Assembly: GCF_011761235.1 (NCBI RefSeq)
Contig: NZ_JAAOYW010000002.1
Coordinates: 682,001-746,000, forward strand
Source of the DNA: Frigoribacterium faeni
GTDB taxonomy: Bacteria; Actinomycetota; Actinomycetes; Actinomycetales; Microbacteriaceae
Reading direction: 5' to 3'
Length of the DNA stretch: 64,000 nucleotides
The translations under genes were made by a program, and so were the position numbers. Each line of letters opens with the position of its first letter. Position 1 is the stretch's first letter. This document shows, piece by piece, positions 4,082 through 60,533 of this stretch. The notes beneath the pieces are model-generated. The model was not told the DNA's origin. It saw only the letters and a list, made by a program, of their open reading frames with translations, and ran no database searches.

Positions 4082-4750
4082 TCAGCCGGCGGCGACGGTC
4101 GCGCCGACCGAGCCCAGCTCCAGCTCGTCGCCGGGGCGGAGCGCGACGGGGCGCCCCTCGACGCACTCGATCTCGACGCCGGAGCGGTGCACCACCGTGC
4201 CGTTGCCCGAGCCGCGGTCGGTCACCACGAGCTGCCCGTCGACGACGTCGAACGCGGCGTGCGCGCGCGAGGTCGATCGCTCGGGGTCGTCCACCGCGAA
4301 GGCCGCCGCGCCGGCCTCGGCCGCGGCCTGCTCCGGGCGACGCCCCACGACGACCGGGCCGTCGACCGTGAGCCGCTGCCCGGTCGAGAACGCGACGACG
4401 AACGTCGTCCGCTGGGTCAGGGGCACGAGCGAAGGAGGCGCGGGCTCGGTCGGCGGCACCGGTGCGGTCGCCGAGGCGGCAGGCACAGCGGGGCCTGCGG
4501 ACGCGGCGGGACCAGCGTTGTCGGCGGCGGGGACAGCGGGCGCGCCGGTCGACGCCGGCGCCGGGGCCGCCGCGGCGGCGCGCGCGGCCGGCGGCACCGT
4601 CCGCTCCAGCGGCGGGCGCGTGCTGGCGAGCGGCGCGGGCAACGGCGCCACGACCGGCGCCCGCCCTGTCGTCACGAGCTGCCCGCACGACAGGCAGAAC
4701 ATGCTGTTGGGGCGCAGCTCGGCCCCGCAGTACTCGCAGCGCGATGCCAT
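4082..4750 (-). CDS. Zinc-ribbon and FHA-domain protein (222 aa)
   Basis: N-terminal zinc ribbon with two CxxC pairs (residues 5-8 and 19-22), a Pro/Ala-rich linker (about 30-125) and a C-terminal FHA domain with the phosphothreonine-binding signature GRR, STSRAHA and GSGNGT. FHA proteins bind pThr peptides and commonly accompany T7SS ATPases of the FHA-FtsK type, pointing to Ser/Thr-kinase control of the machine. Downstream of the ATPase on the same strand, separated by a palindromic repeat. The linker carries the recurring 9-mer (4433-4441). Confidence 0.85.
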   Translation of the reverse strand: MASRCEYCGAELRPNSMFCLSCGQLVTTGRAPVVAPLPAPLASTRPPLERTVPPAARAAAAAPAPASTGAPAVPAADNAGPAASAGPAVPAASATAPVPPTEPAPPSLVPLTQRTTFVVAFSTGQRLTVDGPVVVGRRPEQAAAEAGAAAFAVDDPERSTSRAHAAFDVVDGQLVVTDRGSGNGTVVHRSGVEIECVEGRPVALRPGDELELGSVGATVAAG

Positions 4751-4828
4751 CAGCCGTCAGTCCCCGTCACGTCGTCCCCTCGAAGCCGTCCTCCACGATA
4801 CGCGACCGCCCGCACCTGCAGGGCGCGC

Positions 4829-4890
4829 GGCGGGTCCCCGTGGGCGGCGGCGCGTCGGCGCCCGCCCGCCACGGACGACGGGGACCCGCC
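4829..4890. repeat. Intergenic palindrome, family P8, copy 1
   Basis: Outer arms GGCGGGTCCCCGT (4829-4841) and its complement (4878-4890), with a second inner GGGCGG/CCGCCC-type stem. A related copy is at 23346-23407. Lies between the end of the ATPase gene and the FHA gene, where it may act as a terminator. Confidence 0.65.
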
Positions 4891-4951
4891 CGCGTCGGGA
4901 GGGACGCAGCGCCGGACCGCCCGACCCGCCCGACCCGCCGGCCCCGCCGCG

Positions 4952-7900
4952 TCAGCGGGTGACGTCGGGCACCTGCACCTGCGCCCAGCGTCCGCCGCTG
5001 TGCAGGGCTCCCCCGCCGGCACCGGCACGCCCGACCATGAACTTGGGGATCTTCTGCCCGAAGAGCTGCGTGCCCACCAGGGCCGACGTCGGGGACAGCA
5101 CCAGCCCCTCCTGCGTCTTCCGCACCTCGCCGTAGGGGCCCGAGAACGTCTTGCCGGCGGCGTCGGGCGAGAGCGCCACGACGAAGGCGAGACGGTCGCG
5201 GTGCGCCATCAGCGCCTGCTCGAGCGGGGTGTCGCGCAGGGTCTCGACGTCGTCGACGACGACGGTGAGCACGACGTCGTCGCCGACGCGGGCCACCTCG
5301 GCCGCGACGTCGTCGCCGGCCGAGGGCGACGCGGCGGACACGGCGAGGGGCACCTCGGCGGCCCGCGCCCAGCGCGTCAACGGCGACTCGCGCGTCGAGA
5401 CGACGAGCACGGGGCGGGCGTCCCACATGAGCTGGTGCGCGATCGTCGCGAGGGCCGTCGAGCGCCCGGTGCCGCGGTCGCCGATCACCGCGAACCCGCC
5501 GACGGCCGGCCAGTCGATCGTGTACCGCGACAGCACGTCGCCGCCGACGCCCACGGTCGGCGACTCCGCCGGCGACCAGGAGGCGCGCGGCAGCTCGGCG
5601 GCGTCGCCGAGCGAGAGCGCCCCGGGCAGGGCGTCCACGCGGAACGGGACCGGCAGGGCAGGGTCGCGCGGCTCGGCCTCGGACCGGGCCCGCGCCTCCT
5701 CGACGACCTCGCGCAGCACGGCCGACTGCGCCTCGGCCGACGCGTCGCGGCCGATCACGGCGACCTGAGCCTCGCGGGCGCTCGCCCCGAACATCAGGCG
5801 ACCGGCGGGCACCGTCTCGGGCAGCTCACGGATCATCACGCCCGCGCCGCGGTAGTCGTTGACGTCGCGCAGCGGCAGCACGTACTGGTCGCCGATGAAC
5901 CCCGAGACGCGGTCGCCCGACACGGTGCGGTCGGCGGCCATCACGACGCGGATGCCGACGCCGGGCCCCTCGCGCAGCACGCGGGTCATCTGGTCGCGGA
6001 ACAGCACGAGCTCGTCCGACTGCAGGGTCGAGGTGACCCGCTCCCAGCCGTCGACGGCGACGACGACGAACGGCAGCCGCTCGGCCGGCTCGGCCCGCCT
6101 GCGCTGCTCGACGACGCTGCCGACGGAGGCACGCGAGAGCACGGTCTGCCGGCGCGACAGCTCGTCGAGGAGGCGCGTCATCAGCCGCGGCAGCCGCGTC
6201 GGCTCGAGGGCGGTCACCACGGCGCCGGTGTGCGGGGCCCGGGCCAGCGGCAGCAGGCCGCCGTTGCCGTAGTCGATGGCGAAGAGGTGCAGGTCGGCCG
6301 GGTCGTGCGCGCGCACGGCCTGCGCGAGCAGGGTGCGCAGCGCCGTCGTGCGGCCCGACAGCGCCGAGCCGATGAAGAGCAGGTGCGAGCCGGAGGCGAC
6401 GTCCCAGACGAGGGGACGCTGCGTCTGCTGCGCGGGGACGTCCTCGAGGCCGATCACGAGCTGGTGCGGGTGCGCGGCGGTGCCCGTGCCGTCGGGGGCC
6501 GGGGCGTCCGCGGCGGACGAGACCACCGCCTCCAGCGGGAGCATCGTGGGCAGGGGCAGCAGCCACGGCGACGGGTTCGCGGGCACGCCGAGCAGGCGCG
6601 TCGCCTCGGTGACGAGGTCGACGAGCGCGCGCAGGTCGGTGTCGTCCTGGTCGACGCCCGTCGACGCGGCGCCCTGCGAGGGGAACCGCGGCTGGTAGCC
6701 GACGGCCCGCCAGTCGAGCTCGGCCAGCGCGGGCAGCACCTTGCGCGTGCGGTGCGCCCCGGGGCGCACGCCGGCGACCCGGGCCGTCTGGAACGCGGCC
6801 GGGGCGACGCCGACGCCGGCCCGGACGAACCCGCGGCCGGGCGTCGAGACGCCGATCAGCGACGCCTCGGGCGAGCCGAGCACGTCGGTCGAGTCGGCCC
6901 GGTCGGTGACGCGCAGCGCGACGCGGAGGTTGATGTTCGACTGCATCTCGGGCGTGATGACGCCGCTGGGGCGCTGCGTGGCGAGCACGAGGTGCACGCC
7001 GAGCGACCGGCCGACGCGGGCGATGCGGACGAGCCCGTTGATGAAGTCGGGGTGCTCGGTCTTGAGCTCGGCGAACTCGTCGATGACGATCATCAGCCGG
7101 GCGAGGCCGAGCCGGGCGGCCGCCTCGGGGTCTTTCGACCAGGCCGCGTCGACGTCCTTGACGGCGAGCTCGGGGCGGCGCAGCACGGTCTCGCGACGCT
7201 TGAGCTCGGCGTCGAGCGACTGCAGCGCGCGCTCGGTCTCGCGGGCGTCGAGGTTGGTCACCATGCCGACGGTGTGCGGCAGGCGCGAGCAGTCCTCGAA
7301 GGCGGAGGCGCCCTTGTAGTCGACGAGGACGAAGTTGAGGGCGTCGGGCCGGTTCGCCAGCGCGAGCGACACCACCCAGGTCTGCAGGAACTCCGACTTG
7401 CCCGAGCCGGTCGTGCCGGCGACGAGCGCGTGGGGGCCGTCGGCGGCGATGTCGACGGCGAACTGCGAGTCGGGCCCGGCGCCCACGACGACGTTCGTGC
7501 GCCGGGGCGACAGCTGCCAGCGCTCGACGATCGCCTGGGGGTCGTCGAGGTCGACGCCGAGCAGCTCGGTGTAGCGCACCGACGTCGGCAGCATTCCCTC
7601 GTCGCCCACGCCGCTGACGTGCTTGATCGAGCAGAGGCTGCGGGCGATCTGCTCGGCCGCGGGCAGCGAGAGCCCGTCGAGCAGCACGTCGGGGTAGTAG
7701 GCGGCGTCGGACTCGAGACGGGCGAGCGAGTGGTCCTCGCCGTCGACGACGACGACGGTGCGCGACTCCTCGGGCAGGCGGGTGCGGTCGCTGTCGATCG
7801 CGACGACGTGCACGTCGGCCTGGCCGCCCGACTCGAGCAGCGACACCATGCCGGGCAGCATGCGGAACCGACGGGCGCCGTCGACCACGACCACGACGGT

Positions 7901-9376
7901 CGAGTCGAAGGCGGCCGAGCCGCGCTCGGTCGAGGCACGGAGGCGCGCGGTCGTCAGGGCGCTCAGCTCGCGCAGCCGGTCGCGTCGCGTGTCGTCGGTG
8001 TTGCCGACGAGGGCCACCACCGACGAGCCGGCCTGGGCGTGGGGCAGCCACTGCACCCACTGCCACAGGGCCGCGTCGTCGTCGTCGCAGAGCACCACGA
8101 TCTGAGCGTCGCGCGGCGAGCGTAGCGTCGCGAACGAGGCGAGCATCGCGCGGACGGCGCTGCGCGTCGCGTCGGGGGCGCCGGCCACGCCGACCACGCC
8201 GGCCGCGAGGTCGACCGCGACGGGCGACGGGGCCACCCCGACGTGCCGGGGCGTCGCGCGGTCGCGGCTGCTGCCGCCCTCGAAGCGCACGTCGAGCGGC
8301 ACCTCGGTCACGCCGACCCGCACGTGCACGGCGTCGGCGTCGCGCTTGCGTCGCTCCCACAGGCGCGAGAGCGGCAGCGTGGCGACGTCGCGCACGACCA
8401 CGGGGTCGGGCTGCGCGTACCAGCTCTCGAGCCGCTGCTCGCGGACGAGCTGGGCGATGCGCGTGCGCCCGTCGACGATGTCCTGCTGCCACTCGTCGAA
8501 GGTGCGCAGCCCCTTCTTCTTCGCGCGCGAGCGCGAGGTGAGGAACGTGCCGATCACCATGACGGGCGACGCCGCCGCCATCATCAGCATCACCGGGCGG
8601 TTGAAGACGATGGCCATCGTCACGCCGAGGATCACGGGGATCACCGCCGACAGCCACGGCAGCGGCGTCTTGTCGGCGTCGTCGGGGCGGTCGCCCGGCA
8701 GCACGACGACCGGCGGCGCCTTGACGGGCGAGATGCGGGAGGTGCGGTTGAAGCCCCGCATGCCGACCTCGTCGGGCGCGGTGTCGGCGTCGCTCCACGG
8801 GGCGAGGCCGATGCGCACGACCGAGCTGCCGAGCTGCACGACGTCGGCCGGCACGACCCGCCCGTCGCCGGTGAGCGGCTCGCCGTTGACCGCGACGGCG
8901 GCGGCGCCCTCGACGACCGAGAGCCGCGCGGCGAGCGGGCCGCGGCGAGCGCCGGCGGCCTCGTCGACGGGGTCGAGGGTGAGCGTGACGTGGTGCCCGG
9001 CGAGCCACGGGTCCGCGATGCGCAGGTCGACGCCGGCGCCGCTGCCGATGCGCAGCGGGGTGCCCGCGGCGAGCGGCACGACCTCGCCCGCGAAGGGCCC
9101 GCCGACCACCTCGAGACGGGGCTGGCCCGGGTGCAGGGCGGGCGCCTCCTGCGGGGGGAGCGTCTGGCCGTTGAGCACGGGCGCGTCGACGAGCGCGGTG
9201 TCGGGGTGCACCGTCGGGGCCACGAGGGACGGGTCGACGCCGAGGCTCTCGGCGACCTCGGCGACCGACGTGTCGTCGGTCACGTCGAGCAGGAACGAGC
9301 GCTCGCCGGCGCCGGGGTCGTCGGAGGAGGCGGCGGCCGGGTCGGCAGGGTCGCGCAGGCTGAGTCGCAGGGTCAC
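4952..9376 (-). CDS. eccC: EccC/EssC-type T7SS ATPase, FHA-FtsK/SpoIIIE (1474 aa)
   Basis: Motor of the secretion system. In order: a ubiquitin-like/FHA-like N-terminus (about residues 1-200, LRIGSG...LAGHHVTL), two membrane helices (about 245-280, WLSAVIPVILGVTMAIVF), then three FtsK-like ATPase modules. Module 1 has a full Walker A GTTGSGKS (about 657) and Walker B LMIVIDEFAEL (about 764); modules 2 (GSALSGRTT, about 1004) and 3 (GDRGTGRST, about 1302) have degenerate P-loops, as usual in EccC/EssC where only the first ATPase is intact. The N-terminal FHA makes it closer to EssC than mycobacterial EccC. GTG at 9376 overlaps the upstream stop (GTGA). A longer open frame upstream is a shadow. 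Confidence 0.93.
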   Translation of the reverse strand: MTLRLSLRDPADPAAASSDDPGAGERSFLLDVTDDTSVAEVAESLGVDPSLVAPTVHPDTALVDAPVLNGQTLPPQEAPALHPGQPRLEVVGGPFAGEVVPLAAGTPLRIGSGAGVDLRIADPWLAGHHVTLTLDPVDEAAGARRGPLAARLSVVEGAAAVAVNGEPLTGDGRVVPADVVQLGSSVVRIGLAPWSDADTAPDEVGMRGFNRTSRISPVKAPPVVVLPGDRPDDADKTPLPWLSAVIPVILGVTMAIVFNRPVMLMMAAASPVMVIGTFLTSRSRAKKKGLRTFDEWQQDIVDGRTRIAQLVREQRLESWYAQPDPVVVRDVATLPLSRLWERRKRDADAVHVRVGVTEVPLDVRFEGGSSRDRATPRHVGVAPSPVAVDLAAGVVGVAGAPDATRSAVRAMLASFATLRSPRDAQIVVLCDDDDAALWQWVQWLPHAQAGSSVVALVGNTDDTRRDRLRELSALTTARLRASTERGSAAFDSTVVVVVDGARRFRMLPGMVSLLESGGQADVHVVAIDSDRTRLPEESRTVVVVDGEDHSLARLESDAAYYPDVLLDGLSLPAAEQIARSLCSIKHVSGVGDEGMLPTSVRYTELLGVDLDDPQAIVERWQLSPRRTNVVVGAGPDSQFAVDIAADGPHALVAGTTGSGKSEFLQTWVVSLALANRPDALNFVLVDYKGASAFEDCSRLPHTVGMVTNLDARETERALQSLDAELKRRETVLRRPELAVKDVDAAWSKDPEAAARLGLARLMIVIDEFAELKTEHPDFINGLVRIARVGRSLGVHLVLATQRPSGVITPEMQSNINLRVALRVTDRADSTDVLGSPEASLIGVSTPGRGFVRAGVGVAPAAFQTARVAGVRPGAHRTRKVLPALAELDWRAVGYQPRFPSQGAASTGVDQDDTDLRALVDLVTEATRLLGVPANPSPWLLPLPTMLPLEAVVSSAADAPAPDGTGTAAHPHQLVIGLEDVPAQQTQRPLVWDVASGSHLLFIGSALSGRTTALRTLLAQAVRAHDPADLHLFAIDYGNGGLLPLARAPHTGAVVTALEPTRLPRLMTRLLDELSRRQTVLSRASVGSVVEQRRRAEPAERLPFVVVAVDGWERVTSTLQSDELVLFRDQMTRVLREGPGVGIRVVMAADRTVSGDRVSGFIGDQYVLPLRDVNDYRGAGVMIRELPETVPAGRLMFGASAREAQVAVIGRDASAEAQSAVLREVVEEARARSEAEPRDPALPVPFRVDALPGALSLGDAAELPRASWSPAESPTVGVGGDVLSRYTIDWPAVGGFAVIGDRGTGRSTALATIAHQLMWDARPVLVVSTRESPLTRWARAAEVPLAVSAASPSAGDDVAAEVARVGDDVVLTVVVDDVETLRDTPLEQALMAHRDRLAFVVALSPDAAGKTFSGPYGEVRKTQEGLVLSPTSALVGTQLFGQKIPKFMVGRAGAGGGALHSGGRWAQVQVPDVTR

Positions 9377-10698: not shown

Positions 10699-10727
10699 TG
10701 CCCCGGCCCCCCTCTCGTCGAGTGCTC

Positions 10728-10740: not shown

Positions 10741-10780
10741 CCACCACCGACAGACCGGGCGGTGACGGCCCAGGGGGACC

Positions 10781-14491: not shown

Positions 14492-14602
14492 TTCGGGGTT
14501 CGGGGGGGGGCTGCGGGTGCTACGCGGGTGCGGCGGGCGTGTGCCGCGGGTGCGGCGGGCGGGGGACGTGCGGCGGATGCGGGGGCGCGTGCGGCGGGCC
14601 GG

Positions 14603-15963: not shown

Positions 15964-15964
15964 G

Positions 15965-21539: not shown

Positions 21540-23281
21540 GAGGCACCTCCCTCGCGACGGACGTCGGGGCCGGCGTCGGCGTCGAGATCGGAGTCGGCGC
21601 CCCCGGCGCCCCCAGCGCTCTCGGCACCCCCGGCGTCGCCGACCAGGGCGGCGAGCAGCCGCGAGCTGGTCACGTCGTCGCCCTCGAGCCGTGCCGAGAC
21701 GCGGCCGTCGCGCAGCACGACCACGCGGTCGGACCCCTCGACGAGCTCGTCCGACTCGCTCGAGATGAGCACGACGCCCAGCCCGCGCGACGCGAGCTCG
21801 TCGATCAGCCCCTGCACCTCGCGCTTGGCGCCCACGTCGATGCCGCGCGTCGGCTCGTCGAGCAGGAACACGCGCGGCTCGGTGCAGAGCCACCGGGCGA
21901 TCAGCACCTTCTGCTGGTTGCCGCCGCTGAGCTGCGAGACGAGCTGGCGCGGGCTCGACACCTTGATGCCGAGCCGGCGCACGAAGGTGTCGACGAGCTC
22001 GTCGACCTTGCGGTCGCTGATCACGCCGAACGTCGAGACGCGGTCCATCACCGCGAGCACGATGTTGTCGCGCACGCTGAGCTCGGGGATGATCCCCTCG
22101 GCCTTGCGGTCCTCGCTGAGCAGCGCGACGCCCGACGCCAGCGACGAGCGGATCGAGTTGCGCCGCAGCGGCTCGCCGCCCACGCGCACCTCGCCGCCCG
22201 TCGTCGCGAGCGCGCCGTAGACGGCCTTGACCGTCTCGCTGCGCCCGCTGCCGAGCAGGCCGCCGAGGCCGACGACCTCGCCCTGCCGCACGTCGAACGA
22301 CACGTCGTGCAGGGCGGCGCGGGCGTCGAGCCCGCTCACGCTGAGCACCGGGTCCGCGCTGAGGGCCGGGGTCGCGGTGGTGGTGCCGACGCCGCTGCCG
22401 ACGAGGGCTCCCCCGGGAGCCGAGGAGGCGCCTCCTGCGCCCTCGAGATCGCCCACGGGACCGGCGGCAGGGTCGCCGAAGCCGGTCGCGCCGTGGGCGG
22501 CGACGTCGTCGATGTCGCGGCCGAGCATGTGGGAGATGAGCTCGCGACGGGTCAGCGGCGCCATCTCGCCGGTGTGCACCACCCGGCCGTCGCGGAGGAT
22601 CGTCACCGCGTCGCAGAGCTGCCAGAGCTCGTCGAGGCGGTGCGAGACGAAGACGATGCCGACGCCCTGGTCGCGCAGCCGCCGGGCGACGGTGAAGAGC
22701 GTGTCGACCTCGCGGCGCTCGAGCGACGAGGTCGGCTCGTCCATGATGACGACGCGGGCGTCGACGCTGACGGCCCGGGCGAGGGCGATCATCTGCTGGA
22801 TGCCGAGCCCGAGCCGTCCGAGGTCGCCCGTGACGTCGACGTCGACGCCGAGGTCGCGGGTGATCGCGGCGGCCTCGCGCTCCATGCGCCGCACGTCGAT
22901 CAGCCCGAGGCGGGTGCGCGGCTCGCGGCCCAGGAACACGTTGCGCGCCACGCTGAGCAGGGGCACCAGGTTGACCTCCTGGTAGACAGTCGAGATGCCG
23001 GCGTCCTGCGCGTCGGCGGCCCGGCCGAACGAGGTCTCGACGCCCTGGTGCAGCAGGCGCCCCTCGTCGGGACGGTGCACGCCCGTGAGCACCTTGATCA
23101 GCGTCGACTTGCCGGCGCCGTTCTCGCCCACGAGGGCGTGGATCGAGCCGGGCTGCACGCTGAACGAGACGCCGCTCAGGGCGGTCACGCCGGCGAAGCG
23201 CTTGGTGACCCCGTCGGCCTGGAGCGCGGGCGTGGTCGGGCGCTCCGCCGTGGCGGTCGGGGGCGGGGAGGTCGTCGTCAT
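21536..23281 (-). CDS. Sugar ABC transporter double ATP-binding protein (581 aa)
   Basis: Two fused ATPase domains typical of CUT2 systems: Walker A GENGAGKST (about residue 52) with Walker B VVIMDEPTSSL; second half with a degenerate P-loop GLLGSGRSE (about 342), LSGGNQQK signature (about 450) and VFLLDEPTRGID. Inter-domain linker (about 255-300) is longer and Gly/Ser/Ala-rich than usual and encodes a palindrome of the genome-wide 9-mer (22433-22446). C-terminal Gly/Ala tail is extra. SD AGAAGG upstream of the ATG. Confidence 0.93.
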   Translation of the reverse strand: MTTTSPPPTATAERPTTPALQADGVTKRFAGVTALSGVSFSVQPGSIHALVGENGAGKSTLIKVLTGVHRPDEGRLLHQGVETSFGRAADAQDAGISTVYQEVNLVPLLSVARNVFLGREPRTRLGLIDVRRMEREAAAITRDLGVDVDVTGDLGRLGLGIQQMIALARAVSVDARVVIMDEPTSSLERREVDTLFTVARRLRDQGVGIVFVSHRLDELWQLCDAVTILRDGRVVHTGEMAPLTRRELISHMLGRDIDDVAAHGATGFGDPAAGPVGDLEGAGGASSAPGGALVGSGVGTTTATPALSADPVLSVSGLDARAALHDVSFDVRQGEVVGLGGLLGSGRSETVKAVYGALATTGGEVRVGGEPLRRNSIRSSLASGVALLSEDRKAEGIIPELSVRDNIVLAVMDRVSTFGVISDRKVDELVDTFVRRLGIKVSSPRQLVSQLSGGNQQKVLIARWLCTEPRVFLLDEPTRGIDVGAKREVQGLIDELASRGLGVVLISSESDELVEGSDRVVVLRDGRVSARLEGDDVTSSRLLAALVGDAGGAESAGGAGGADSDLDADAGPDVRREGGAS

Positions 23282-23407: not shown

Positions 23408-23425
23408 GCAGGTCGGAGACAGGGG

Positions 23426-23473
23426 CCCAGGAGGCGCGGGCGGCCCTGCGCGGACCGCGCCGCGCCTCCTGGG
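23426..23473 (-). terminator. Hairpin built from an inverted pair of the 9-mer
   Basis: CCCAGGAGGCGCG (23426-23438) pairs with CGCGCCTCCTGGG (23461-23473), 13 bp, with a GC-rich loop. Directly downstream of the sugar-binding-protein gene; likely an attenuator that raises binding protein over ATPase and permeases. Confidence 0.6.
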
Positions 23474-23503
23474 GTCGGGCTGGCGAGCAGCCCCGGGGCC
23501 GGC

Positions 23504-25641: not shown

Positions 25642-25816
25642 CCGCCCGAGCTTACGACCCGGCCCGCGCGGGGCTCTGTGCGGGGGGTCTGTGCGGGCCG
25701 TCGCCAGGGTCGGCCGGGGTCGGCCGGTGAGCCGTCACAGATGGTCCCCCACGGCGCGGGGAACAGCCTTTCGCGTCGTCTCGTGGTCGGCGGAAGGGGG
25801 GCTGGGGCCGGGGACA

Positions 25817-25858
25817 CGAGGAGGCGCGGTGCAGGGATGCCTGCACCGCGCCTCCTCG
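25817..25858 (-). terminator. 19-bp perfect terminator hairpin containing inverted 9-mers
   Basis: CGAGGAGGCGCGGTGCAGG (25817-25835), loop GATG, and its complement (25840-25858). Positioned just after the stop of the transglycosylase gene. No T-tract. Confidence 0.8.
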
Positions 25859-25894
25859 GGCCCTCGCCCCGTCGCCCCCGCGACGGGCCGCGGC

Positions 25895-26989: not shown

Positions 26990-27434
26990 GTGGTCCCATT
27001 GCTCGGCCGACCTGCTCGACACGCCGCGGGCGCGTCGATCGCCTCCGCGCGACGGGGGCGCGGGCACCGCGCGGGGGCACGGTGCGCGACGGCACGGCCG
27101 GGGAGTCGGTCCCGGGGGCTGCTCTCGTGCCTCGCCCTCGGGCGGACGAGACGAGCAGACGGGTGCTGTCGAGGTGACGGGTCGGTGTCGGATCACGCGG
27201 GGCCTGGGGGTCCCGGCGCGTCCGCCAGCGCGTCCGTAGGACACGGACCGGCGCGGGCGAAGTGACGAGTGTGCACGACGCGCCTGGGATTCCGCGCAGA
27301 ATCCCGTGTCGAACGCCTCCGTCCGGTCGCCCGGCGCGTGCCCGGCTGGCCCGACCCGCGCCTCCTCGTCCCCGACCCGCGCCTCCTCGTCCCCGACCCG
27401 CGCCCCCTCGCCCCGCGCCTCCTCGTCCCCTCGT
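26990..27434. other. Long upstream region of the transglycosylase gene, with motif array
   Basis: No convincing ORF. It holds a 22-base tandem array (27356-27425) of CGCGCCTCCTCGTCCCCGAC, three exact copies of the 9-mer in the same orientation plus one altered. The long 5' region may be a leader, but no known riboswitch could be recognised. Confidence 0.5.
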
Positions 27435-28752: not shown

Positions 28753-28801
28753 CGCGCAGGAGGCGCGGTGCAGGTCCGACCCGCACCGCGCCTCCTGCGC
28801 G
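28753..28801 (-). terminator. 19-bp terminator hairpin containing inverted 9-mers
   Basis: CGCGCAGGAGGCGCGGTGC (28753-28771) with its complement (28783-28801), 11-base loop. Immediately after the stop of the HPS gene. Confidence 0.8.
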
Positions 28802-35916: not shown

Positions 35917-36980
35917 GGGCGGGTCACCGCCGAGTCGGGCCACGTGCCGGGCACGGTGCCGGTCGTGGTGACGTGGTCGGTGCCGCTGGCGGTGCCGCCG
36001 CTGCTCGAGCCCGCGGTGCCGGGCGTGCCGAGGCCGGGGACGTCGCCCTCGGTGACGACGTCGTACTCGCCGGCGACCGGGCCGGTGGCCGTCGTGCCCG
36101 TGGTGTGCGCGGCTCCCGTGGAGTGCTGCGCGGACGGGGCGGCGTCGTGCGCGGACGCGGCGTCGTGCTGGTCCTTCGCCTCGGCGGTGAGCGACTTGAC
36201 GACGCGGCCGGCGAGGAGGCCGGAGACGGCGGCGATCGCGATGAAGGTGCCGGGCTTGCGGGCGGCGAACTGCTTGACGTCGTCGAGCAGCGTGCCGGGG
36301 TCGCGGCCCTCGAGCCACTCGGCCACGCCGTGCGCGCGGCCGGACAGGTTGCTCACGAGCTGCTGGGCGACCCCGTCGTCGGCGCCCTGCGCCATGGAGT
36401 CGAGCTGCTCGCCGACGGAGCGGAGACCGGCCGCGGCCTTCTCCTGCTGCGCGCCGGCCTGGTCCTTGAGCTCGCTCGTCGCCTGGCCGTAGAGCTGCTT
36501 GGCGTGGTCGGTCGCCTCGGAGGCGACCTTGCCGGCCTGCTCCTTGGCGCTGCCGGCCACGTTCGCGGCCTGCTCCTTGGCGTCGCCAGCGACTTTGCCG
36601 GCCTCGTCCTTCGCGGCGTCGGCCTTGCCGGAGGCGCCGGTCGAGCCGGAGCCGTCGGTGCTGCCGGTCGAGGCGGTGCTGCCGGTCGAGGCTGTGCCGT
36701 CGGTCGAGCCGGTGGCGTACGTGCTGCCGGTCGGGGCGACGGGCCAGGTCGACCCCGCGCTCGTGCCGTCGGTGCCGGTCGCCGGACCGGTCCCGTCGGA
36801 CGAGGAGGCGCCTCCTGCGGCCCTGGGGACGCCGTCCACGTCGGTCTCGTCGAACGGTCGGTCGAGGCTGCCCTCGACGTCGCGGTAGGCGCCGACCTCG
36901 CCGAGCGGCGAGCCCGACTCGGCGGCCTGGTCGTACAGGGGGGTCGGCGGCGTGGTGCCGTCTCCGTGGGTGTCGCTCAT
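35913..36980 (-). CDS. LEA-like repeat membrane protein of stress operon (355 aa)
   Basis: Low-complexity Gly/Ser/Thr N-terminus, then 11-mer LEA-type amphipathic repeats (KDEAGKVAGDAKEQAANVAGSAKEQAGKVA), a helical domain (LRSVGEQLDSMAQ...LSGRAHGVAEWLEGRDPGTLLDDVKQFAARKPGTF), one TM helix (about 255-273) and a disordered tail. First gene of the three-gene operon. Role inferred as envelope/desiccation protection. Confidence 0.8.
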   Translation of the reverse strand: MSDTHGDGTTPPTPLYDQAAESGSPLGEVGAYRDVEGSLDRPFDETDVDGVPRAAGGASSSDGTGPATGTDGTSAGSTWPVAPTGSTYATGSTDGTASTGSTASTGSTDGSGSTGASGKADAAKDEAGKVAGDAKEQAANVAGSAKEQAGKVASEATDHAKQLYGQATSELKDQAGAQQEKAAAGLRSVGEQLDSMAQGADDGVAQQLVSNLSGRAHGVAEWLEGRDPGTLLDDVKQFAARKPGTFIAIAAVSGLLAGRVVKSLTAEAKDQHDAASAHDAAPSAQHSTGAAHTTGTTATGPVAGEYDVVTEGDVPGLGTPGTAGSSSGGTASGTDHVTTTGTVPGTWPDSAVTRP

Positions 36981-46658: not shown

Positions 46659-46689
46659 GCGGAGCCGCCCTGCGGACGCAGGGTGCCGA

Positions 46690-46727
46690 GGAGGCGCGGG
46701 TCGGGAACTCCTGGCCCGCGCCTCCTG
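46690..46727 (+). terminator. Hairpin terminator from inverted 9-mers
   Basis: AGGAGGCGCGGG (46690-46701) pairs with CCCGCGCCTCCT (46716-46727), 14-base loop, directly after the reductase stop. Confidence 0.75.
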
Positions 46728-46847
46728 CGTCCGGTCGCGCGACGACGGCTCGTGCCCGGCGCCGCCGCGCGCTCGCGCTCCCGCTCGTGCCCGTGCGGCT
46801 GCCCGTGCTCGTGCTCGAGCTCAAGCTCGTGCTCGAGGTCGGCCTCT

Positions 46848-53830: not shown

Positions 53831-54052
53831 AACCACGTTCCGTTCGGAGAACCACGAAGGAACGTGGTTCTCTGAACGGAACGGGGTTCGGCGCCACGGC
53901 GGCGCAGCAGCCGGTGCGCAGCCGCTCGTCCTGCGCGCCCCCGCGTGCCCGGCCGCACGTCCCGCGCGCCGCACCTTCTCCGCTCCCCCTGACACCGCCG
54001 AGTGAACGAAACACCGCCGCAGTGGGCGGTGTTCGGTTCACTCGGCGGTGTT
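53831..54052. repeat. P2 and P1 palindromes with conserved spacer
   Basis: P2 at 53831-53888 followed by about 100 bases of spacer resembling the one at 41.6 kb, then P1 at 53991-54052. The left edge (GGTGTCCGGCGCA) is the tail of another P1. This equals the middle of the tandem array at 41.4-41.9 kb. Confidence 0.8.
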
Positions 54053-54212
54053 CGGGCGGGAGGCGCGGATCGGCGCGAGCGGCGGCGCGGGCGGCGCGCG
54101 CGGCGCGGGCGGCGCGGGCGGCGGGAGCGGACAGAGGCGCGGGGCGGCGCGGGCCGGCGAGCCTGCGAGCGGGCCGGCGGGCGGCCCGGGCGGCCCGCCG
54201 CCCGGGCGCCGC

Positions 54213-55538
54213 TCAGGCGGGGCGCACCCCCACGCGCACCGAACCGCCCGCCGCGGCCGCCGCGATGCCCGCGTCGAGCTCGGCCAGCGCGACGACCTCG
54301 CCGACGAGCTCGGCCAGCGGCCAGGCCGTGTGCCGCTCCTCGACGAAGCGCGCGGCGGCGACCAGGTGCCGCGGCGCGTAGTTGTGCACGCCCCGGACGG
54401 TGACGAGCCTCCGCACGACGCTCTCCGCGTCGAACGGCACCGCCGGCGCGGGGAACACGCTGCCCACGAGCACGGCGACTCCGCCGGTCCCGAGCAGGGC
54501 CATCGCGGAGGCGACGGCCGCGGACGATCCGGAGGCCTCCACGGCCACGAGGGGGGCGCCTCCTGCGGCGCGGAGCGCGTGCTCCACGCTGTCGTCCGAG
54601 CCGGGCGCGGCCGCGGGGCACGCGGTCGCCACGGCCCCGAAGCGGGCGGCGAGCGCGCGTCGCGAGGCGTCGGGGTCGACGACGACGACCCGGGCTCCGG
54701 AGTCGCTCGCCATCGCCGCCACGGTGAGCCCGATCAGGCCGGCGCCGAGCACGAGCACGACGGCTCCCTCGAGGTCGGTGATCTGCGCGGCCGCGTCGAG
54801 CGCCGCCCGGGCCGTCGCGGTGCCGCAAGACACGGGGGCGAGCAACGCGGCGTCGAGGTCGTCGGCGACCGGGACGACCGCCGTGCCGGCCCGCACGTGC
54901 ACGTGCGTGGCGAAGCCGCCGCTCAGCTCCCACCCGGTGACAAGCCGCTCGTGCCCGTACTTGAGCACGGACTCGCACTTCTGCGGCAGCCCGCGCCGGC
55001 AGGTCGCGCAGCGACCGCAGCTGACGGTCAGCGACCAGACGACCCGCTGGCCCGGCACGAGCGGCGAGCCGTCGACGGCCGCCGCCCCGGAGCCGACGGC
55101 CACCACGCGGCCGACCTGCTCGTGGCCGAGCACGAGCGGCGCCGGGGCGCTGCGGTCGCCCCGTGTCGTGTGCACGTCCGAGCCGCAGATCGTCGTCAGC
55201 TCGAGCGCGACGAGCACGTCGCCGGGGGCGAGCACCACCGTCGGCACGGCGACGGCCTCGTGCCGGCGGCCGGGCTCGGTCCAGACCATCGCGGTCGGCG
55301 ACGGGTCGAGGCGCAGCTCGACGGGGGCCGCGGCGGCGGAGGCGGACGCGGCGCCCCCGGGCTCCGCCGGGTCCGACACGGGAGCCGAGGAGGCGCGGCG
55401 TCCGCGACGCGGGACGGGACCGGCACCCGAGGCAGGCCGTCCCGACGAGCCGGGTCGCACCTCCTCGTCGCGGGCCTGTGGCTCGGCGGTGCCGGTGCCC
55501 GCGTCGACGTGCCGGGCTCGGAGCGCTCGGGGCCGCAT
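54213..55538 (-). CDS. Zinc alcohol dehydrogenase of the phosphonate-operon type (441 aa)
   Basis: Medium-chain dehydrogenase: catalytic zinc CGSDVHTTRGD and GHEQVGRVVAVG, structural zinc CGRCATCRRGLPQKC, NAD motif VLVLGAGLIGLTVAAM. Best fits the alcohol dehydrogenases found in phosphonate catabolism clusters (proposed HpnZ group); it may oxidise or reduce the aldehyde released. ATG shares the A of the upstream TGA (TGATG). The first about 75 residues are a disordered Arg/Ala/Gly extension; a GTG at 55382 (VSDPAEPGG) is an alternative start. Last gene of the operon. Confidence 0.82.
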   Translation of the reverse strand: MRPRALRARHVDAGTGTAEPQARDEEVRPGSSGRPASGAGPVPRRGRRASSAPVSDPAEPGGAASASAAAAPVELRLDPSPTAMVWTEPGRRHEAVAVPTVVLAPGDVLVALELTTICGSDVHTTRGDRSAPAPLVLGHEQVGRVVAVGSGAAAVDGSPLVPGQRVVWSLTVSCGRCATCRRGLPQKCESVLKYGHERLVTGWELSGGFATHVHVRAGTAVVPVADDLDAALLAPVSCGTATARAALDAAAQITDLEGAVVLVLGAGLIGLTVAAMASDSGARVVVVDPDASRRALAARFGAVATACPAAAPGSDDSVEHALRAAGGAPLVAVEASGSSAAVASAMALLGTGGVAVLVGSVFPAPAVPFDAESVVRRLVTVRGVHNYAPRHLVAAARFVEERHTAWPLAELVGEVVALAELDAGIAAAAAGGSVRVGVRPA

Positions 55539-56437
55539 CAGGCGACCGACAACGCGGTCGACTCCGCCGCCGAGCCAGACCCCGCGGCCCCAGAGCCGGT
55601 GCCCGCAGAACCGCCCGCGACACCGGCCCCCGCACCCGCACCCCCGAGCACCCCCGCGACCTGCGGCAGCCCCACGAGCTCGGCGACCCCGTCGAGCACG
55701 ACGTCGGCTCCGGCGGCGAGCAGCTGGTCGCGGCCGTGCGCGCCCGTGGTCACGCCGACGACGAGCCCGGCGCCGGCCGAGCGGCCGGAGAGCACGTCGC
55801 TCACGGTGTCGCCGACGACGACGACCGACGCGACCGACGAGGCGCCCGTGCGCAGCAGCGCCGTGAGCACGAGGTCGGGGGCCGGTCGACCGCGGCCCGC
55901 GTCGACGGGCGAGAGCGCCGCGTCGACCTGCCAGCCGAGCGAGTCGAGCAGGCGGTCGCGCGTGGCGGGGGCGAAGCCGGTCGTCAGCACGACCGCGACG
56001 CCCGAGGCGCGGAGGGCCTCGATCAGCTCACCCGCTCCCGCGATCGGCTCGACGCCGAGCTCGTCGGCGAGCTCGCCGTACGCGACCTCGAACTGCTCGT
56101 TCGCGCGCTGCGCCAGCGCCTCGTCGCCGCCGGTCAGGTGACGGAACACCTCGATCTTCGACTGCCCCATCGTGTCGCGGACGTGCTGCAGCGCCTCGTC
56201 GCGGGTCAGCGTGGGGCCGAGGTCGACGCGGTCGGCGGTGCGGGCGAAGGCCTGCTCGACGACGCCGTCGTCGACGACGGTCGTGCCGGCCATGTCGAGC
56301 ACGACGAGCTCGACCCGGGCCGAGGAGGCGGCGGCCGCGGAGCCCGAGGAGGCGCCGGCCCCCGAGGCGACGGGCCCTGAGGCGACGGCCCCCGAGGCAG
56401 AGGAGGAGGACGGGCGGGCGGTGGTGTCGGTGCTCAT
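55538..56437 (-). CDS. PhnX-like (phosphonatase-like) HAD hydrolase (299 aa)
   Basis: HAD fold with nucleophile LDMAGTTVVDDGVV, cap motif VRDTMGQSKIEVFRHL, VVLTTGF, and VVVVGDTVSDVLSGRSAGAG, the pattern of phosphonatase-like hydrolases linked to phosphonate operons; expected to cleave the C-P bond of phosphonoacetaldehyde or a relative. Whether the Lys of MGQSK equals the Schiff-base Lys of true PhnX needs alignment. Long Ser/Ala/Gly extension before residue 42 and a Gly/Ala tail are unusual. ATGA overlap with the oxidoreductase. Confidence 0.87.
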   Translation of the reverse strand: MSTDTTARPSSSSASGAVASGPVASGAGASSGSAAAASSARVELVVLDMAGTTVVDDGVVEQAFARTADRVDLGPTLTRDEALQHVRDTMGQSKIEVFRHLTGGDEALAQRANEQFEVAYGELADELGVEPIAGAGELIEALRASGVAVVLTTGFAPATRDRLLDSLGWQVDAALSPVDAGRGRPAPDLVLTALLRTGASSVASVVVVGDTVSDVLSGRSAGAGLVVGVTTGAHGRDQLLAAGADVVLDGVAELVGLPQVAGVLGGAGAGAGVAGGSAGTGSGAAGSGSAAESTALSVA

Positions 56438-57729
56438 GGGCGGCTTCCTGTCAGGAGGGAGGAGGGTCGGGAGGCGGCGAGCGCGGCGTCGCGCCCGCCG
56501 TCGAGGTGGCTGCCGACGACGTGCTCGGCGAGCCCGAGGCCGGTGGTCATGCCGATCCCGGTGGCGACGACGGTGACGAGCACCCCGGGCTCGACCTCGT
56601 CGACGACGAACTCGTCTCGGCCGGAGGCGTAGACGCCCTGCCAGCGCTCGGCCACGACGGGCTCGGCGCCGAACAGCGCGCGGAACTCGTCGAGGAACGC
56701 GACGGAGGCGCGCTCGTCCTGGAACGGCGAGATCGCCGCGCCCGTGACGTGGCTGTCGCCGACGACGACCGAGCCATCCGGCAGCTGCGTGTACATCTGG
56801 TTGAGGTCGAGCGCGGCGAGGTCGGGCCGCTCGGCGTGCAGGCGGCTCCGCACGTCGTCGGCCGCGGCCGTGCCGGCGAAGGCGCTGTAGCGGATCAGCG
56901 ACCAGCCGGTCAGCAGGGGCGCGACGAGCGGTCGGGCGAGCTCGGCCCGCACGCGCAGCATGTCGAGCCCGCAGCGCTGCAGCTCGCTGCGCTCGGCGAG
57001 GTCGGGCAGCAGCTGGTCGAGGTCGTGGTTGGTCGCGACGACGACCGTGCCGGCGTCGACCGGCCCCCGGCTCGTTTCGACGCGCCCGCTGCGGACCGAC
57101 CCCGCGGAGGTGCGGGTCAGGAAGCGCACCCCTCGCGACTCGAGGTGCCTGCGGATCGCGTCCGCCGCCTTCCGCGGGTCGACCTGCAGGTCGTACGGCA
57201 GCAGGGCGCCGCCGAGCGTCGTGCCGGGCGCCACCGGGGCGAGGGCGCGGAGGGCGCGCTCGTCGAGGGGCTCGATCTCGGGGCGGTCGCCGAGCACGTG
57301 CTCGGTGCGCGCGGCGGCGAGCTCGTCGAGCAGCGCGAGCTCGTCGTCGTGCCGCGCGGCCACGAGGGTGCCGCGCTCGGAGACCCAGAACCCGGCGTCG
57401 CGGGCGAGCCGCAGCCACAGCGCACGGGCGGCGATCGCGTGCCGGCGGGCCTCGCCGCTCTGCGGGGTGAGGCAGAGGTGGCCGAAGTTGCGGACCGTCG
57501 AGCCGCCGATCGCGGCCGACCGGTCGACGACCAGCACCGACAGGCCCCGGTCGGCGGCGGCGAGCGCCGCGCCGAGCCCGACGATGCCCGAGCCGACGAC
57601 GACCACGTCGTGCGGCTCCGCGGCCGCGGACCGCGCCGCCGAGGGACGCGCCTCCGCCGGTCGCGCCGCCGCGGGTCGCGCGCCCGTAGGCAGCACGGCC
57701 GCCCCGCCCCCCGCGTCGACCGCCGTCAT
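56434..57729 (-). CDS. FAD-dependent oxidoreductase of the phosphonate operon (431 aa)
   Basis: DAO-family flavoenzyme: GxGxxG in VVVVGSGIVGLGAALAA (about 42-58) and the family-specific GGSTVRNFGHLCLTP, then VDPRKAADAIRRHL, GMTTGLGLAEHVVG at the C-terminus. Members of this group in phosphonate loci oxidatively deaminate aminoalkyl-phosphonates (such as 2-aminoethylphosphonate or its N-methyl/hydroxy forms) to the aldehyde; exact substrate cannot be told. Extra 38-residue Ala/Pro/Arg N-terminus. Overlaps both neighbours by 4 bases. Confidence 0.87.
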   Translation of the reverse strand: MTAVDAGGGAAVLPTGARPAAARPAEARPSAARSAAAEPHDVVVVGSGIVGLGAALAAADRGLSVLVVDRSAAIGGSTVRNFGHLCLTPQSGEARRHAIAARALWLRLARDAGFWVSERGTLVAARHDDELALLDELAAARTEHVLGDRPEIEPLDERALRALAPVAPGTTLGGALLPYDLQVDPRKAADAIRRHLESRGVRFLTRTSAGSVRSGRVETSRGPVDAGTVVVATNHDLDQLLPDLAERSELQRCGLDMLRVRAELARPLVAPLLTGWSLIRYSAFAGTAAADDVRSRLHAERPDLAALDLNQMYTQLPDGSVVVGDSHVTGAAISPFQDERASVAFLDEFRALFGAEPVVAERWQGVYASGRDEFVVDEVEPGVLVTVVATGIGMTTGLGLAEHVVGSHLDGGRDAALAASRPSSLLTGSRP

Positions 57730-59582
57730 CGCAGCACCTTCCGCATCCACATCGCGAGGCCCTCGACCGCGAGCACGGTGACGAGGATCATCAGCACGAT
57801 CGCCGTGACGGCGCCGTAGTTCGAGCCCTGGCTCGCGTTGAGCAGGTAGTAGCCGACGCCCCCGGCGCCGACGATGCCGAGCAGGGTCGCCGCCCGGATG
57901 TTCGTGTCGAGCATGTAGAAGGCGTGGCCGACGAGCGCGCGGGTGCCCTGGGGCAGGGTCGCGCCGGCGTAGACCTGCAGGCGGGTGGCGCCGGTGGCGG
58001 CGAGCGCGCGCTCGGGGCCGGGCGACACCTCCTCGAACGAGTCGGCGAGCAGCTTGCCGAGCAGGCCGACGCCGCCGAGGGCGAGGGCGAGGGTGCCGGC
58101 CTGGGTGCCGAGCCCGGTGACGACGATCAGCACGATGGCGAGGATCACCTCCGGCACCCCGCGGATGCCGACGAGCAGCAGCCGCATGCCGCTGCGGACC
58201 CCGCGGCTGGGCGCGACGTTGCGGGCGGCGAGCGAGCCGACGACGACCGAGGCGACGAGCGTGAGCAGCGTCGCGGCGAGGGCGATCGCGACGGTCTCGC
58301 CCATCGCGGCGACCATGGTCGAGGTCTCGTAGCTGCCGAACGACGGCGGCCAGAACTGCACGGCGACGGCGGGCACCCGGCTCCACACGCTGACGAGGTC
58401 GGCCCAGGCGACGTCGCAGACGACGACGCTCGCGACGACGACGGCCGCGGCGAGCGCGCCCCAGGTCGTGTTCCGCACGCGGGCGCGGTCCCACGGGCGG
58501 CGCAGCATCGCGTCGACGGTGACGGGAGCGGAGGCCGGGGCGGTGCGGGAGGCGGCGGGTGCAGACGGAGCGGAGGCAGCAGGAGCGGGGGGCGAGGAGG
58601 CGCGGGTCGCGTCCTGCGCACCCGTCGCCCCGGCAGGTGCCCGGCCGGCCGTCTCGGGGACGTCGGCGGCCTTCGATCCGGCTGCGCGCCTCCTCGTGGC
58701 CCGGCGCACCACGCGGTCGCCGAGGCCGCGGCCGGTGGGCGCGACGCCGAGCATGGCGGCGCGGACCGAGCTCGAGACGATCTCCATGACGACGCAGAGC
58801 ACGAAGATGACGACCGCGTAGCCGAGCCCCAGGCCGTAGTCGAGCGACTTGAACGCGAACGACATCTCCCGGCCGAGGCCGACCACGCCGACGTACCCGA
58901 GCACCACGCTGCCGCGCAGGTTGATGTCGTTGCGGTGCAGCACCGTGGCGACCCACGACGGCAGCACCTGGGGCAGCACCCCGGCGGCGAACTGCTGCAC
59001 GCGGGTGCCGCCCGCGGCGCGGACCGCCGTGCGCGGCCCCTCGTCGATCTGCTCGATCGCGTCGGCGAACAGCTTCGAGATCATGCCGACGGAGTGCAGG
59101 CCGATCGCGAGGATGCCCGGCAGGGTGCCGAGCGAGAAGAGCAGCACGAACACCATCGCGAGCACGACGTCGGGCACGGCGCGGGCGAGCACCGTGACGA
59201 AGCGGGCGGCGGCGCGCCAGCCGGCGCCGGGCGTCGTGTTCGAGGCGGCGAGCACGGCGACGGGCACCGACAGCACGGCCGCGAGCAGCGTGCCGCAGAT
59301 CACGAGGCCGAGGGTGAGGGCCGTGAGCTGCAGCAGCTCGCCCGCCGGCGGGAACTCGACCGCGCCGACCCGGCCGACGAAGCGCTCGGCGTTCGACCAG
59401 CTCTGCAGCATCCGGGCCGGGTCGATCCCGACGCTGCGGAGGGCCACGACGCTGGCGACCAGCAGGGCGACGAGGGTGAGGCCGGCCGCGACGCGCTCGG
59501 GCGAGACCCTGTGACGAGGAGGCGCGGCGACCGGCGCGAGGGGAGCCTCGGTCGTCCGCGGGCGCTCGGCCACGACGGTCAT
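57726..59582 (-). CDS. phnE: Fused phosphonate ABC permease, PhnE-PhnE (618 aa)
   Basis: Two complete PhnE-type permeases in one chain: domain 1 (about 1-285) with FSLGTLPGILAIGLHSVGMISKLFADAIEQIDEGP and domain 2 (about 345-618) with VTGLGTQAGTLALALGGVGLLGKLLADSFEEVSPGP, each with about six TM helices and the EAA-loop DEGP...ALRAAGATR. A 60-residue Ala/Pro/Arg linker joins them; it carries two oppositely oriented 9-mers. Usually PhnE occurs once or as two genes. ATG overlaps phnC stop (ATGA). Confidence 0.92.
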   Translation of the reverse strand: MTVVAERPRTTEAPLAPVAAPPRHRVSPERVAAGLTLVALLVASVVALRSVGIDPARMLQSWSNAERFVGRVGAVEFPPAGELLQLTALTLGLVICGTLLAAVLSVPVAVLAASNTTPGAGWRAAARFVTVLARAVPDVVLAMVFVLLFSLGTLPGILAIGLHSVGMISKLFADAIEQIDEGPRTAVRAAGGTRVQQFAAGVLPQVLPSWVATVLHRNDINLRGSVVLGYVGVVGLGREMSFAFKSLDYGLGLGYAVVIFVLCVVMEIVSSSVRAAMLGVAPTGRGLGDRVVRRATRRRAAGSKAADVPETAGRAPAGATGAQDATRASSPPAPAASAPSAPAASRTAPASAPVTVDAMLRRPWDRARVRNTTWGALAAAVVVASVVVCDVAWADLVSVWSRVPAVAVQFWPPSFGSYETSTMVAAMGETVAIALAATLLTLVASVVVGSLAARNVAPSRGVRSGMRLLLVGIRGVPEVILAIVLIVVTGLGTQAGTLALALGGVGLLGKLLADSFEEVSPGPERALAATGATRLQVYAGATLPQGTRALVGHAFYMLDTNIRAATLLGIVGAGGVGYYLLNASQGSNYGAVTAIVLMILVTVLAVEGLAMWMRKVLR

Positions 59583-60403
59583 CGGGCCACGTCCCCGGCG
59601 AGCTCGAGCTCGATGGCGGCCAGCTGGTCGGTGCTGGTCGCGACGCGGCCGTAGATCTCCATGACCTGGGCCTTCGACAGGCCCTCGGTCTCGGTGTCGA
59701 GCACGACGGCGCCGTGGCGCAGCCCGACGATGCGGTCGGCCCACGAGAGCGCGAGGTCGACCTGGTGCAGGCTGCAGATGACGGTGAGGCCCTCGTCGAC
59801 CGCGATCTCGCGGATCAGCGCCATCACCTGGTCGCTCGACTCGGGGTCGAGCGACGCGACGGGCTCGTCGGCGAGCAGCACCTGGGGGCGCTGCATGAGG
59901 GCCCGCGCGATGGCGACGCGCTGCTGCTGGCCGCCCGAGAGGGTGTCGGCGCGCTGGTAGGCGCGCTCGAGCAGGCCGACGCGCTCGAGCCGGGCGAGGC
60001 CCTCGGCGCGGGCGGCACGTCCGTACGACCAGAGGCCGAGCCGGGGTCCGCGCACGGCGGCGAGGGAGCCGGTCAGCACGTTCTCGAGCACCGTCAGCGA
60101 GGGCACGAGCTCGAACTGCTGGAAGATGAAGCCGACCTCGCTGCGCAGCTCGCGCAGGGCGCGGCCCGAGAGGCCGGTGACCTCGCGGCCGAGCACCGTC
60201 ACCCGGCCGTCGGTCGGCCGCTCGAGGCCGTCGACGTGGCGCAGCAGCGTCGACTTGCCCGAGCCCGAGAGGCCCAGCAGCACGACGACCTCGCCGCGGC
60301 GGACGCTCAGCGACGCGTCGTCGAGGGCCACGGTCGTGCCGAAGCGCTTGGTGATGCCCTCGAGCGAGACGACGGTCTCGGCGGGGTCGGTCTGCGGTGT
60401 CAT
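59579..60403 (-). CDS. phnC: Phosphonate ABC transporter ATP-binding protein PhnC (274 aa)
   Basis: Walker A LGLSGSGKSTLL (about 42-53), Q-loop FIFQQFELVPSLTVLENVL, signature LSGGQQQRVAIARALMQRP, Walker B VLLADEPVASLDPESS, H-loop SLHQVDLAL. The FQQFxLVxxLTVxxNVL-type Q-loop and length fit PhnC. Spacing to phnD is 130 bases with a hairpin. Confidence 0.94.
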   Translation of the reverse strand: MTPQTDPAETVVSLEGITKRFGTTVALDDASLSVRRGEVVVLLGLSGSGKSTLLRHVDGLERPTDGRVTVLGREVTGLSGRALRELRSEVGFIFQQFELVPSLTVLENVLTGSLAAVRGPRLGLWSYGRAARAEGLARLERVGLLERAYQRADTLSGGQQQRVAIARALMQRPQVLLADEPVASLDPESSDQVMALIREIAVDEGLTVICSLHQVDLALSWADRIVGLRHGAVVLDTETEGLSKAQVMEIYGRVATSTDQLAAIELELAGDVAR

Positions 60404-60481
60404 GGGGTCTCCGGTCGGGACGGGGCGAGGCGGGTGTTCGAGGAGGTGCGGTGCGCGGAGGCGCGCGAGGTGCGGTGCGCG

Positions 60482-60518
60482 GGAGGCGCGGTGACGGGAC
60501 GACCGTCACCGCGCCTCC
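60482..60518 (-). terminator. Attenuator-like hairpin between phnD and phnC
   Basis: GGAGGCGCGGTGACGG (60482-60497) pairs perfectly with CCGTCACCGCGCCTCC (60503-60518), loop GACGA. Likely raises binding protein over the rest of the operon. Contains the motif core on each arm. Confidence 0.7.
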
Positions 60519-60533
60519 TTCAGGCTCGGGCCG

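Follow-up and report, generated by a model that had tools for sequence, protein, structure and literature searches.

A dispersed nine-base word in Frigoribacterium and related words in sister genera: a candidate DNA-uptake-type sequence

We know of sequence-tagged DNA uptake from the Pasteurellaceae and the Neisseriaceae alone, and the USS of the Pasteurellaceae have AT-rich flanks. The same two families are named for sequence-tagged uptake in the excerpted text of PMC7811141. The nine-base word of Frigoribacterium faeni described here, AGGAGGCGC, can be set beside both systems. As with the Neisseriaceae DUS dialects (excerpts of PMC3630211), the copies are short, number in the thousands, occupy both strands and lie in genes and in the gaps between them; inverted pairs form stem-loops, and related dialects are found in different genera of one family. 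As with the Pasteurellaceae USS (excerpts of PMC2346458 and PMC1939737), a nine-base core has a weak flank preference and occurs about once per 1–2 kb. Unlike the DUS, the words reported here are GC-rich and belong to monoderm actinobacteria, and unlike Neisseria, which uses the pilin ComP, they have no link to type IVa pili. AGGAGGCGC lacks the AT-rich flanks of the USS, and in contrast to both known systems it is known from sequence alone. A literature search, mostly of papers outside subscription, found among the papers listed no report of an uptake-sequence-like word in this family or in Actinobacteria at large, and the literature matches to the letters of AGGAGGCGC, among the matches listed, looked like primer matches.

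Over-representation in the window and the genome

The window (the whole stretch of DNA analysed, 64,000 nt at 74.7% GC) contains 64 exact copies of AGGAGGCGC, 33 on the plus strand and 31 on the minus strand. The initial annotation had counted about 61 (32 and 29) with about 2 expected, and 100 dinucleotide shuffles of the window gave a mean of 2.5 copies and a maximum of 7. The positions were as follows.

4433..60519, both strands: the AGGAGGCGC copies overall, 64 exact matches
4433, 5578, 6168, 13776, 15146, 17626, 18575, 22423, 23429, 25819, 27809, 28492, 28758, 30280, 30727, 31095, 33847, 36803, 38544, 41276, 44607, 44824, 45894, 46120, 46689, 49047, 49607, 51601, 53787, 55388, 56347, 58595, 59517, plus strand: starts of AGGAGGCGC, exact matches
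5692, 9142, 12842, 13562, 15292, 16407, 19311, 19403, 22428, 23462, 25848, 27358, 27379, 27415, 27727, 28788, 29289, 30157, 34150, 36808, 39307, 41426, 44006, 46718, 46972, 49548, 49975, 51163, 54556, 58686, 60511, minus strand: lower coordinates of AGGAGGCGC, exact matches

A maximal-order Markov model of the window predicted 54 copies against the 64 present; this expectation is high since two words contained in AGGAGGCGC, GGAGGCG and AGGAGGC, are inflated too. An 859-kb sample of the same genome (41 stretches: the window and L009-L048) held 432 copies where an order-5 Markov model expected 141. Under the latter model, AGGAGGCGC and its overlapping neighbours were the most over-represented 8- and 9-mers of the sample after runs of C, and 10- to 12-base extensions of the word still ranked near the top. 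The whole genome (3.2 Mb in five contigs) contained 1474 copies (726 and 748 on the two strands), compared with 135 (73 and 62) for the reversed control word. The window was the densest of the 41 stretches, with 20 copies per 20 kb against 1.3 to 18 in the remaining 40, and had about twice the genome mean. A repeat of the window alone is ruled out by the 1474 genomic copies, and chance or composition by the shuffles together with the synonymous-codon permutations described below. The over-representation first noted in the window is therefore confirmed as real and extends far beyond it. Neither outcome that the initial annotation had named as refuting, a genome-wide count near Markov expectation or an enrichment limited to the window, came about.

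The 859-kb sample also contained 42 runs of at least nine C or G (longest 32; for example window positions 14502-14510). All 42 lay outside called genes, and such runs far exceeded Markov expectation. They are possible slippage or regulatory tracts.

Placement, shape and conservation

Genes were called with a simple codon-based caller, which missed the comEC of L010. In the window, 36 copies of AGGAGGCGC lay within called genes and 28 between genes, the latter in tandem (15), convergent (9) and divergent (4) gaps. The 432 copies of the 859-kb sample divided into 270 in genes, 158 intergenic and 4 spanning edges. Coding DNA had 0.36 copies per kb and intergenic DNA 1.37. Whether a gap was tandem, convergent or divergent made no difference to its density in the sample, which rules out a terminator function as the only one. 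A ribosome-binding site was likewise ruled out, since a sense copy lay within 22 nt upstream of just 14 of 772 called starts. Strand walks were flat on both large contigs (78 and 86 sampled copies on C1, 134 and 134 on C2), and without strand polarity along the replichores KOPS or another polar chromosome motif was ruled out. Two claims of the initial annotation, that the word occurs both in genes and between them and that its lack of strand bias speaks against KOPS-type polarity, thus stood in the sample and, for strand balance, genome-wide. Regularity of spacing was looked for among the copies and was absent (CV 1.06).

The copies within genes exceed what codon use would provide. Synonymous codons were shuffled 60 times within each of the 772 genes, and the shuffled genes held a mean of 78 and a maximum of 95 copies, compared with the 270 present. 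In the three frames that force rare codons there were 34, 15 and 6 copies, compared with 0.3, 0.2 and 0.2 after shuffling. Eleven other words were permuted in the same way, and the one-base variant AGGAGGCGG alone was above its shuffles (190 versus 92). Within genes of at least 450 nt, the first and last deciles held 34 and 43 copies versus about 23 per inner decile. This preference for the end deciles is shared with the Pasteurellaceae USS, for which an excess near gene ends is described (excerpts of PMC2346458).

The bases around AGGAGGCGC showed weak preferences (C at -3 and -2, G at -1, C or T at +12, C at +13 and some T at +17) that were common to intergenic, sense-coding and antisense-coding copies, and G at +9 and +10 was strong between genes only. 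The wider consensus that had been proposed proved weak. Among the 27 single-mismatch forms, the change of C9 to G was 6.1-fold over order-3 expectation, A1 to C 3.4-fold and A1 to G 2.6-fold. Every substitution at positions 2, 4, 6 and 8 fell under this expectation, and positions 3, 5 and 7 were partially tolerant. The pooled single-mismatch forms reached 1.42-fold, compared with 0.65- to 1.37-fold for eight permuted control words; with one control at 1.37, a graded drive is not demonstrated.

Neighbouring copies up to 80 nt apart formed 48 pairs, 24 of them head-on and seven of these overlapping. An inverted arm was located within 85 nt downstream of 39 of the 162 intergenic copies and upstream of 6 of the 162, and about a quarter of the intergenic copies sat in hairpins. 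Inverted pairing at gene ends had been claimed for this word; the pairing held for no more than this quarter and was not peculiar to gene ends, all types of gap being equally dense. The pairs and clusters of the window are listed here.

23429..23470, no strand assigned: intergenic inverted pair, long perfect-looking hairpin (fold -45.4 kcal/mol over 23425-23475)
25819..25856, no strand assigned: intergenic inverted pair, hairpin (fold -46.3 kcal/mol over 25815-25860)
28758..28796, no strand assigned: inverted pair in a convergent-gene gap, hairpin (fold -46.2 kcal/mol over 28754-28800)
46689..46726, no strand assigned: inverted pair in a convergent-gene gap, hairpin (fold -40.1 kcal/mol over 46685-46730)
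22423..22436, no strand assigned: head-on overlapping AGGAGGCGC pair forming a palindrome within a called gene (exact matches)
36803..36816, no strand assigned: head-on overlapping AGGAGGCGC pair forming a palindrome within a called gene (exact matches)
27358..27423, minus strand: three successive same-strand AGGAGGCGC copies, intergenic (exact matches)

Conservation was examined by aligning 10 of the 41 stretches with 22 stretches of a sister species (G008), alignments shorter than 300 nt or below 72% identity being dropped. Over 134.8 kb of alignment at 87.3% identity, 39 of 48 coding copies of AGGAGGCGC were identical in the sister species; among 1270 control words matched in composition the identical share was 35.2% (P = 8e-11). 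The intergenic copies were identical in 7 of 13 cases, compared with 30% of controls (P = 0.08). Columns within the word were 94-95% identical versus 83-85% in the flanks. At the pilus locus, all seven copies aligned between L009 and L057 were kept. Against more distant species, L009 kept 2/4, 2/7, 1/5, 1/10, 1/3 and 1/2 aligned copies; with one or two copies kept per comparison, the positions of AGGAGGCGC turn over and the density stays.

Related words in the genus, sister genera and phages

All 16 genomes of the genus that we examined carried 811 to 1861 copies of AGGAGGCGC, from 2.6-fold (G007, 811/309) to 25-fold over the reversed control. The 13-mer CGAGGAGGCGCGG occurred 213 to 648 times per genome of the genus, compared with 0 to 5 for its controls, and G007, despite its just 2.6-fold excess of AGGAGGCGC, had 213 versus 5. 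Among 44 genomes outside the genus, the highest AGGAGGCGC count was 283, with 251 reversed controls. Six of the 44 showed a mild excess of 2- to 3.5-fold (word/reversed control: G020 16/5, G023 151/43, G039 62/30, G055 197/81, G057 70/25, G058 112/49), and restriction of AGGAGGCGC to the genus is not absolute.

Sister genera were sampled at 80 kb each, and the 18 genera were judged by Markov and codon-shuffle tests rather than by the ratio to a reversed control. GGATGCC was among the top three 7-mers in seven of the first eight, and the eighth (G019) uses AGGATCC. A related word of their own was clearly enriched in the genes of 11 of the 18 sister genera, weakly in 2 and not at all in 5; each word was tested in the very 80-kb samples that had served to choose it, and whole-genome counts of GGATGCC were concordant. 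GGATGCC exceeded every synonymous shuffle within genes of G016, G017, G018, G021, G022, G023, G024 and G094, and GGATCC forms did so in G019, G072 and G200. The weak cases were G029 (CGATGCC 82 versus 52 and GGATCAG 32 versus 18 after synonymous shuffling) and G087 (GGATCGG 27 versus 19). In the 80-kb samples of G088, G082, G031, G071 and G069, no word was enriched within genes relative to synonymous shuffles. In two genomes of other families GGATGCC was not in excess within genes (G037, 13 versus 9 with a shuffle maximum of 14; G055, 31 versus 34), and in 20-kb loci of Microbacterium (7 versus 6.6) and Leucobacter (7 versus 5.1) it showed no clear excess. Two of the sampled genomes carried repeats unlike the dispersed words. 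In G082 (L169-L172), GTATCGAG forms are an intergenic repeat (19 of 19 noncoding). In G069 (genus g53; L189-L192), TGGAGGCGC forms, which resemble AGGAGGCGC, were noncoding in 10 of 15 cases, and GGAGGCGC forms lay between genes in 13 of 24.

Searches across 249 genomes of the family, with the genus represented by 5 of its 16, found 240,441 forward and 240,556 reverse copies of GGATGCC. The ratio of GGATGCC to its reversed control was at least 4 in 155 genomes of 61 genera; ratios of 2-3 mean little because the control, CCGTAGG, carries a TAG and is itself uncommon within genes.

Phages differed in their content of the word. No excess of GGATGCC was found in parts of the Microbacterium phages Min1 (6 versus 5.6 expected), Stoor (2 versus 3.4) and Quenya (2 versus 3.7). 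In Microbacterium phage Owens (L224) it occurred 21 times in 13.9 kb versus 3.0 expected, and its near relatives Minima (L225) and TimoTea (L226) held 24 and 23 copies in 17.4 kb, in both orientations. These three represent a single 17-kb phage lineage, and at least four other 7-mers outrank GGATGCC in them. As a lead, this richness suits protection or a Chi-like role no less well than uptake.

Candidate readers and rival explanations

Both comEA and comEC are present in the genome of the window. Its type IVa pilus locus encodes PilB, PilT, PilC, PilM, a prepilin peptidase and pilin-like proteins, together with a PilO-like protein under the Pfam cut-off. The competence and type IV pilus genes to which the initial annotation had pointed are thus present in this genome, but type IVa PilT and PilC were absent from three of the 16 congeneric genomes (G002, G003 and G006), and these three had the highest counts of CGAGGAGGCGCGG in the genus. 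Motif-rich sister genera such as g78 likewise lacked PilC and PilT. PilM was above cut-off in 122 of the 249 genomes of the family, a number to be read with the knowledge that it can escape detection in fragmented assemblies (G160 and G150 had no PilM match but did have a PilC-type T2SSF). The median GGATGCC ratio was 6.7 in genomes with PilM and 3.6 in those without (P = 4e-6, n = 249), and 6.8 versus 4.7 among the 207 genomes of at least 2 Mb (P = 0.02), genomes of one genus not being independent in either comparison. Motif-rich genera lay on both sides: g84 and g87 had PilM, whereas g78 lacked it, as did g106 in two of its three genomes. PilM is weakly linked to the motif across the 249 genomes. 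In view of the weak link, the motif-rich genera on both sides and the absence of PilC and PilT from G002, G003 and G006, a type IVa pilus was rejected as the reader; such pili do not account for the motif.

ComEC was found in 245 of the 249 genomes, the four misses being genomes 82-93% complete, and was rejected as a discriminator between motif-bearing and motif-free genera. T2SSF proteins, whether of the type IVa or the Tad kind, were present in 242 of 249. As both are almost universal they are permissive and do not discriminate, and they cannot account for the 5 of 18 sister genera without a word. G018 (genus g4) had no T2SSF match, yet is motif-rich, with a GGATGCC ratio of 9.1 and 786 copies per Mb. 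The actinobacterium Micrococcus luteus needs Flp pili, along with ComEA and ComEC, for transformation (excerpts of PMC4322843), and a Tad route is plausible on this precedent. That species shares the phylum and has Tad/Flp competence with ComEA/ComEC and without type IVa pili; the difference is that neither the excerpts of PMC4322843 nor a term search of the paper gave a mention of an uptake sequence.

The rare-codon excess in genes, the conservation and the dialects together require a dispersed recognition word that is under selection, and several kinds of reader have to be weighed. A Chi-like signal would halt degradation by an end-processing helicase-nuclease, start recombination and spare the DNA that bears it. 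Chi sites are also over-represented, dispersed words with clade-specific forms (excerpts of PMC4390886 and PMC1939737), and such a GC-rich word in lineages without type IVa pili and, in both orientations, in a small GGATGCC-rich phage lineage would suit this role. We nevertheless regard it as unlikely: unlike Chi, AGGAGGCGC shows no replication polarity on either large contig, head-on pairs are frequent, hairpins occur, and its weak sequence preference reaches +17. The binding site of a family-conserved chromosome-organising or nucleoid protein would be expected on both strands, in genes and gaps and over the entire genome, with selective conservation. Words that differ between genera, and even inside g106, would be unusual for a protein with thousands of sites, however, and with no candidate protein this role seems distinctly unlikely. 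There is a slim chance that the word is HIP-like and linked to an orphan DNA methyltransferase. Cyanobacterial HIP words (excerpts of PMC4390886) are also in genome-wide excess and are substituted in some lineages by other words, GGGATCCC among them, and the GGATCC dialects of G019, G072 and G200 are palindrome-based; neither AGGAGGCGC nor GGATGCC, by contrast, is palindromic.

Two further explanations are both very improbable. The inverted arms downstream of 39 of 162 intergenic copies could belong to a REP-like repeat or terminator hairpin that contains the word by chance, and the GGAGGCGC forms of G069 are indeed mainly intergenic. As sole cause this is refuted by the excess in genes, where 270 of 432 sampled copies lie, beyond codon use, and the three gap types are equally dense; it may cover part of the intergenic copies only. 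A context-dependent mutation or repair bias favouring the word would work on both strands everywhere and could vary between genera, but the context needed would span some seven bases or more, and such a bias sits poorly with motif columns better conserved than their flanks and with the parts of three Microbacterium phages that have no GGATGCC excess.

We rate an uptake-type function as the most likely, because the Neisseriaceae uptake sequences share the anatomy, the dialects and the stem-loop pairs (excerpts of PMC3630211), and give a probability of roughly 0.45 that AGGAGGCGC is a DNA-uptake-type sequence. The initial annotation had offered this reading, which is supported in part: density, strand balance, presence in genes, dialects, hairpins and conservation agree with it, but the link to type IVa pili was tested and not found. 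Partly for that reason we do not class AGGAGGCGC as a DUS and propose the uptake role by analogy. Among the observations that count against uptake are the GGATGCC-rich phage lineage, which is not obviously predicted by it, the motif-richness of G018 without T2SSF and the irregular spacing of the copies. We infer both the kind of reader, an uptake receptor, and the cause of the enrichment, uptake itself. AGGAGGCGC would then be the genus dialect of a dispersed self-identifying word common to much of one family, probably the Microbacteriaceae. At the competence machinery, a putative receptor (Flp/Tad-type pilus, or ComEA together with ComEC), which need not be a type IVa pilus, would prefer fragments that bear the word. 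Recombination of word-bearing DNA from kin would raise the number of words in tolerant places, such as intergenic hairpins, gene ends and coding frames, even where rare codons result. It is possible, if doubtful, that this amounts to family-wide, dialect-bearing recognition of self-DNA in monoderm actinobacteria without type IVa pili, in which an almost universal competence apparatus of Flp/Tad or ComEA type recognises some seven core bases (GGATGCC, GGATCC, GGAGGCG and kin), the dialects of different genera have drifted until mutually foreign, and at least one small phage lineage may have adopted such a word.

If uptake is the function, self-tagging would have arisen in monoderms too, as a set of dialects spread over an actinobacterial family; a reader independent of type IVa pili would be implied, and the dialects would go some way towards explaining why genes are exchanged less freely between genera. 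With any other function, AGGAGGCGC remains a strong genome-wide word. A handle for finding its reader is provided by genus g106, in which G143 and G250 are rich in GGATGCC and G200 uses GGATCC, a switch of word inside one genus. In G200 (L193-L196), CGGATCC occurred 117 times in genes versus 28 expected, and GGATGCC 10 times versus 24.
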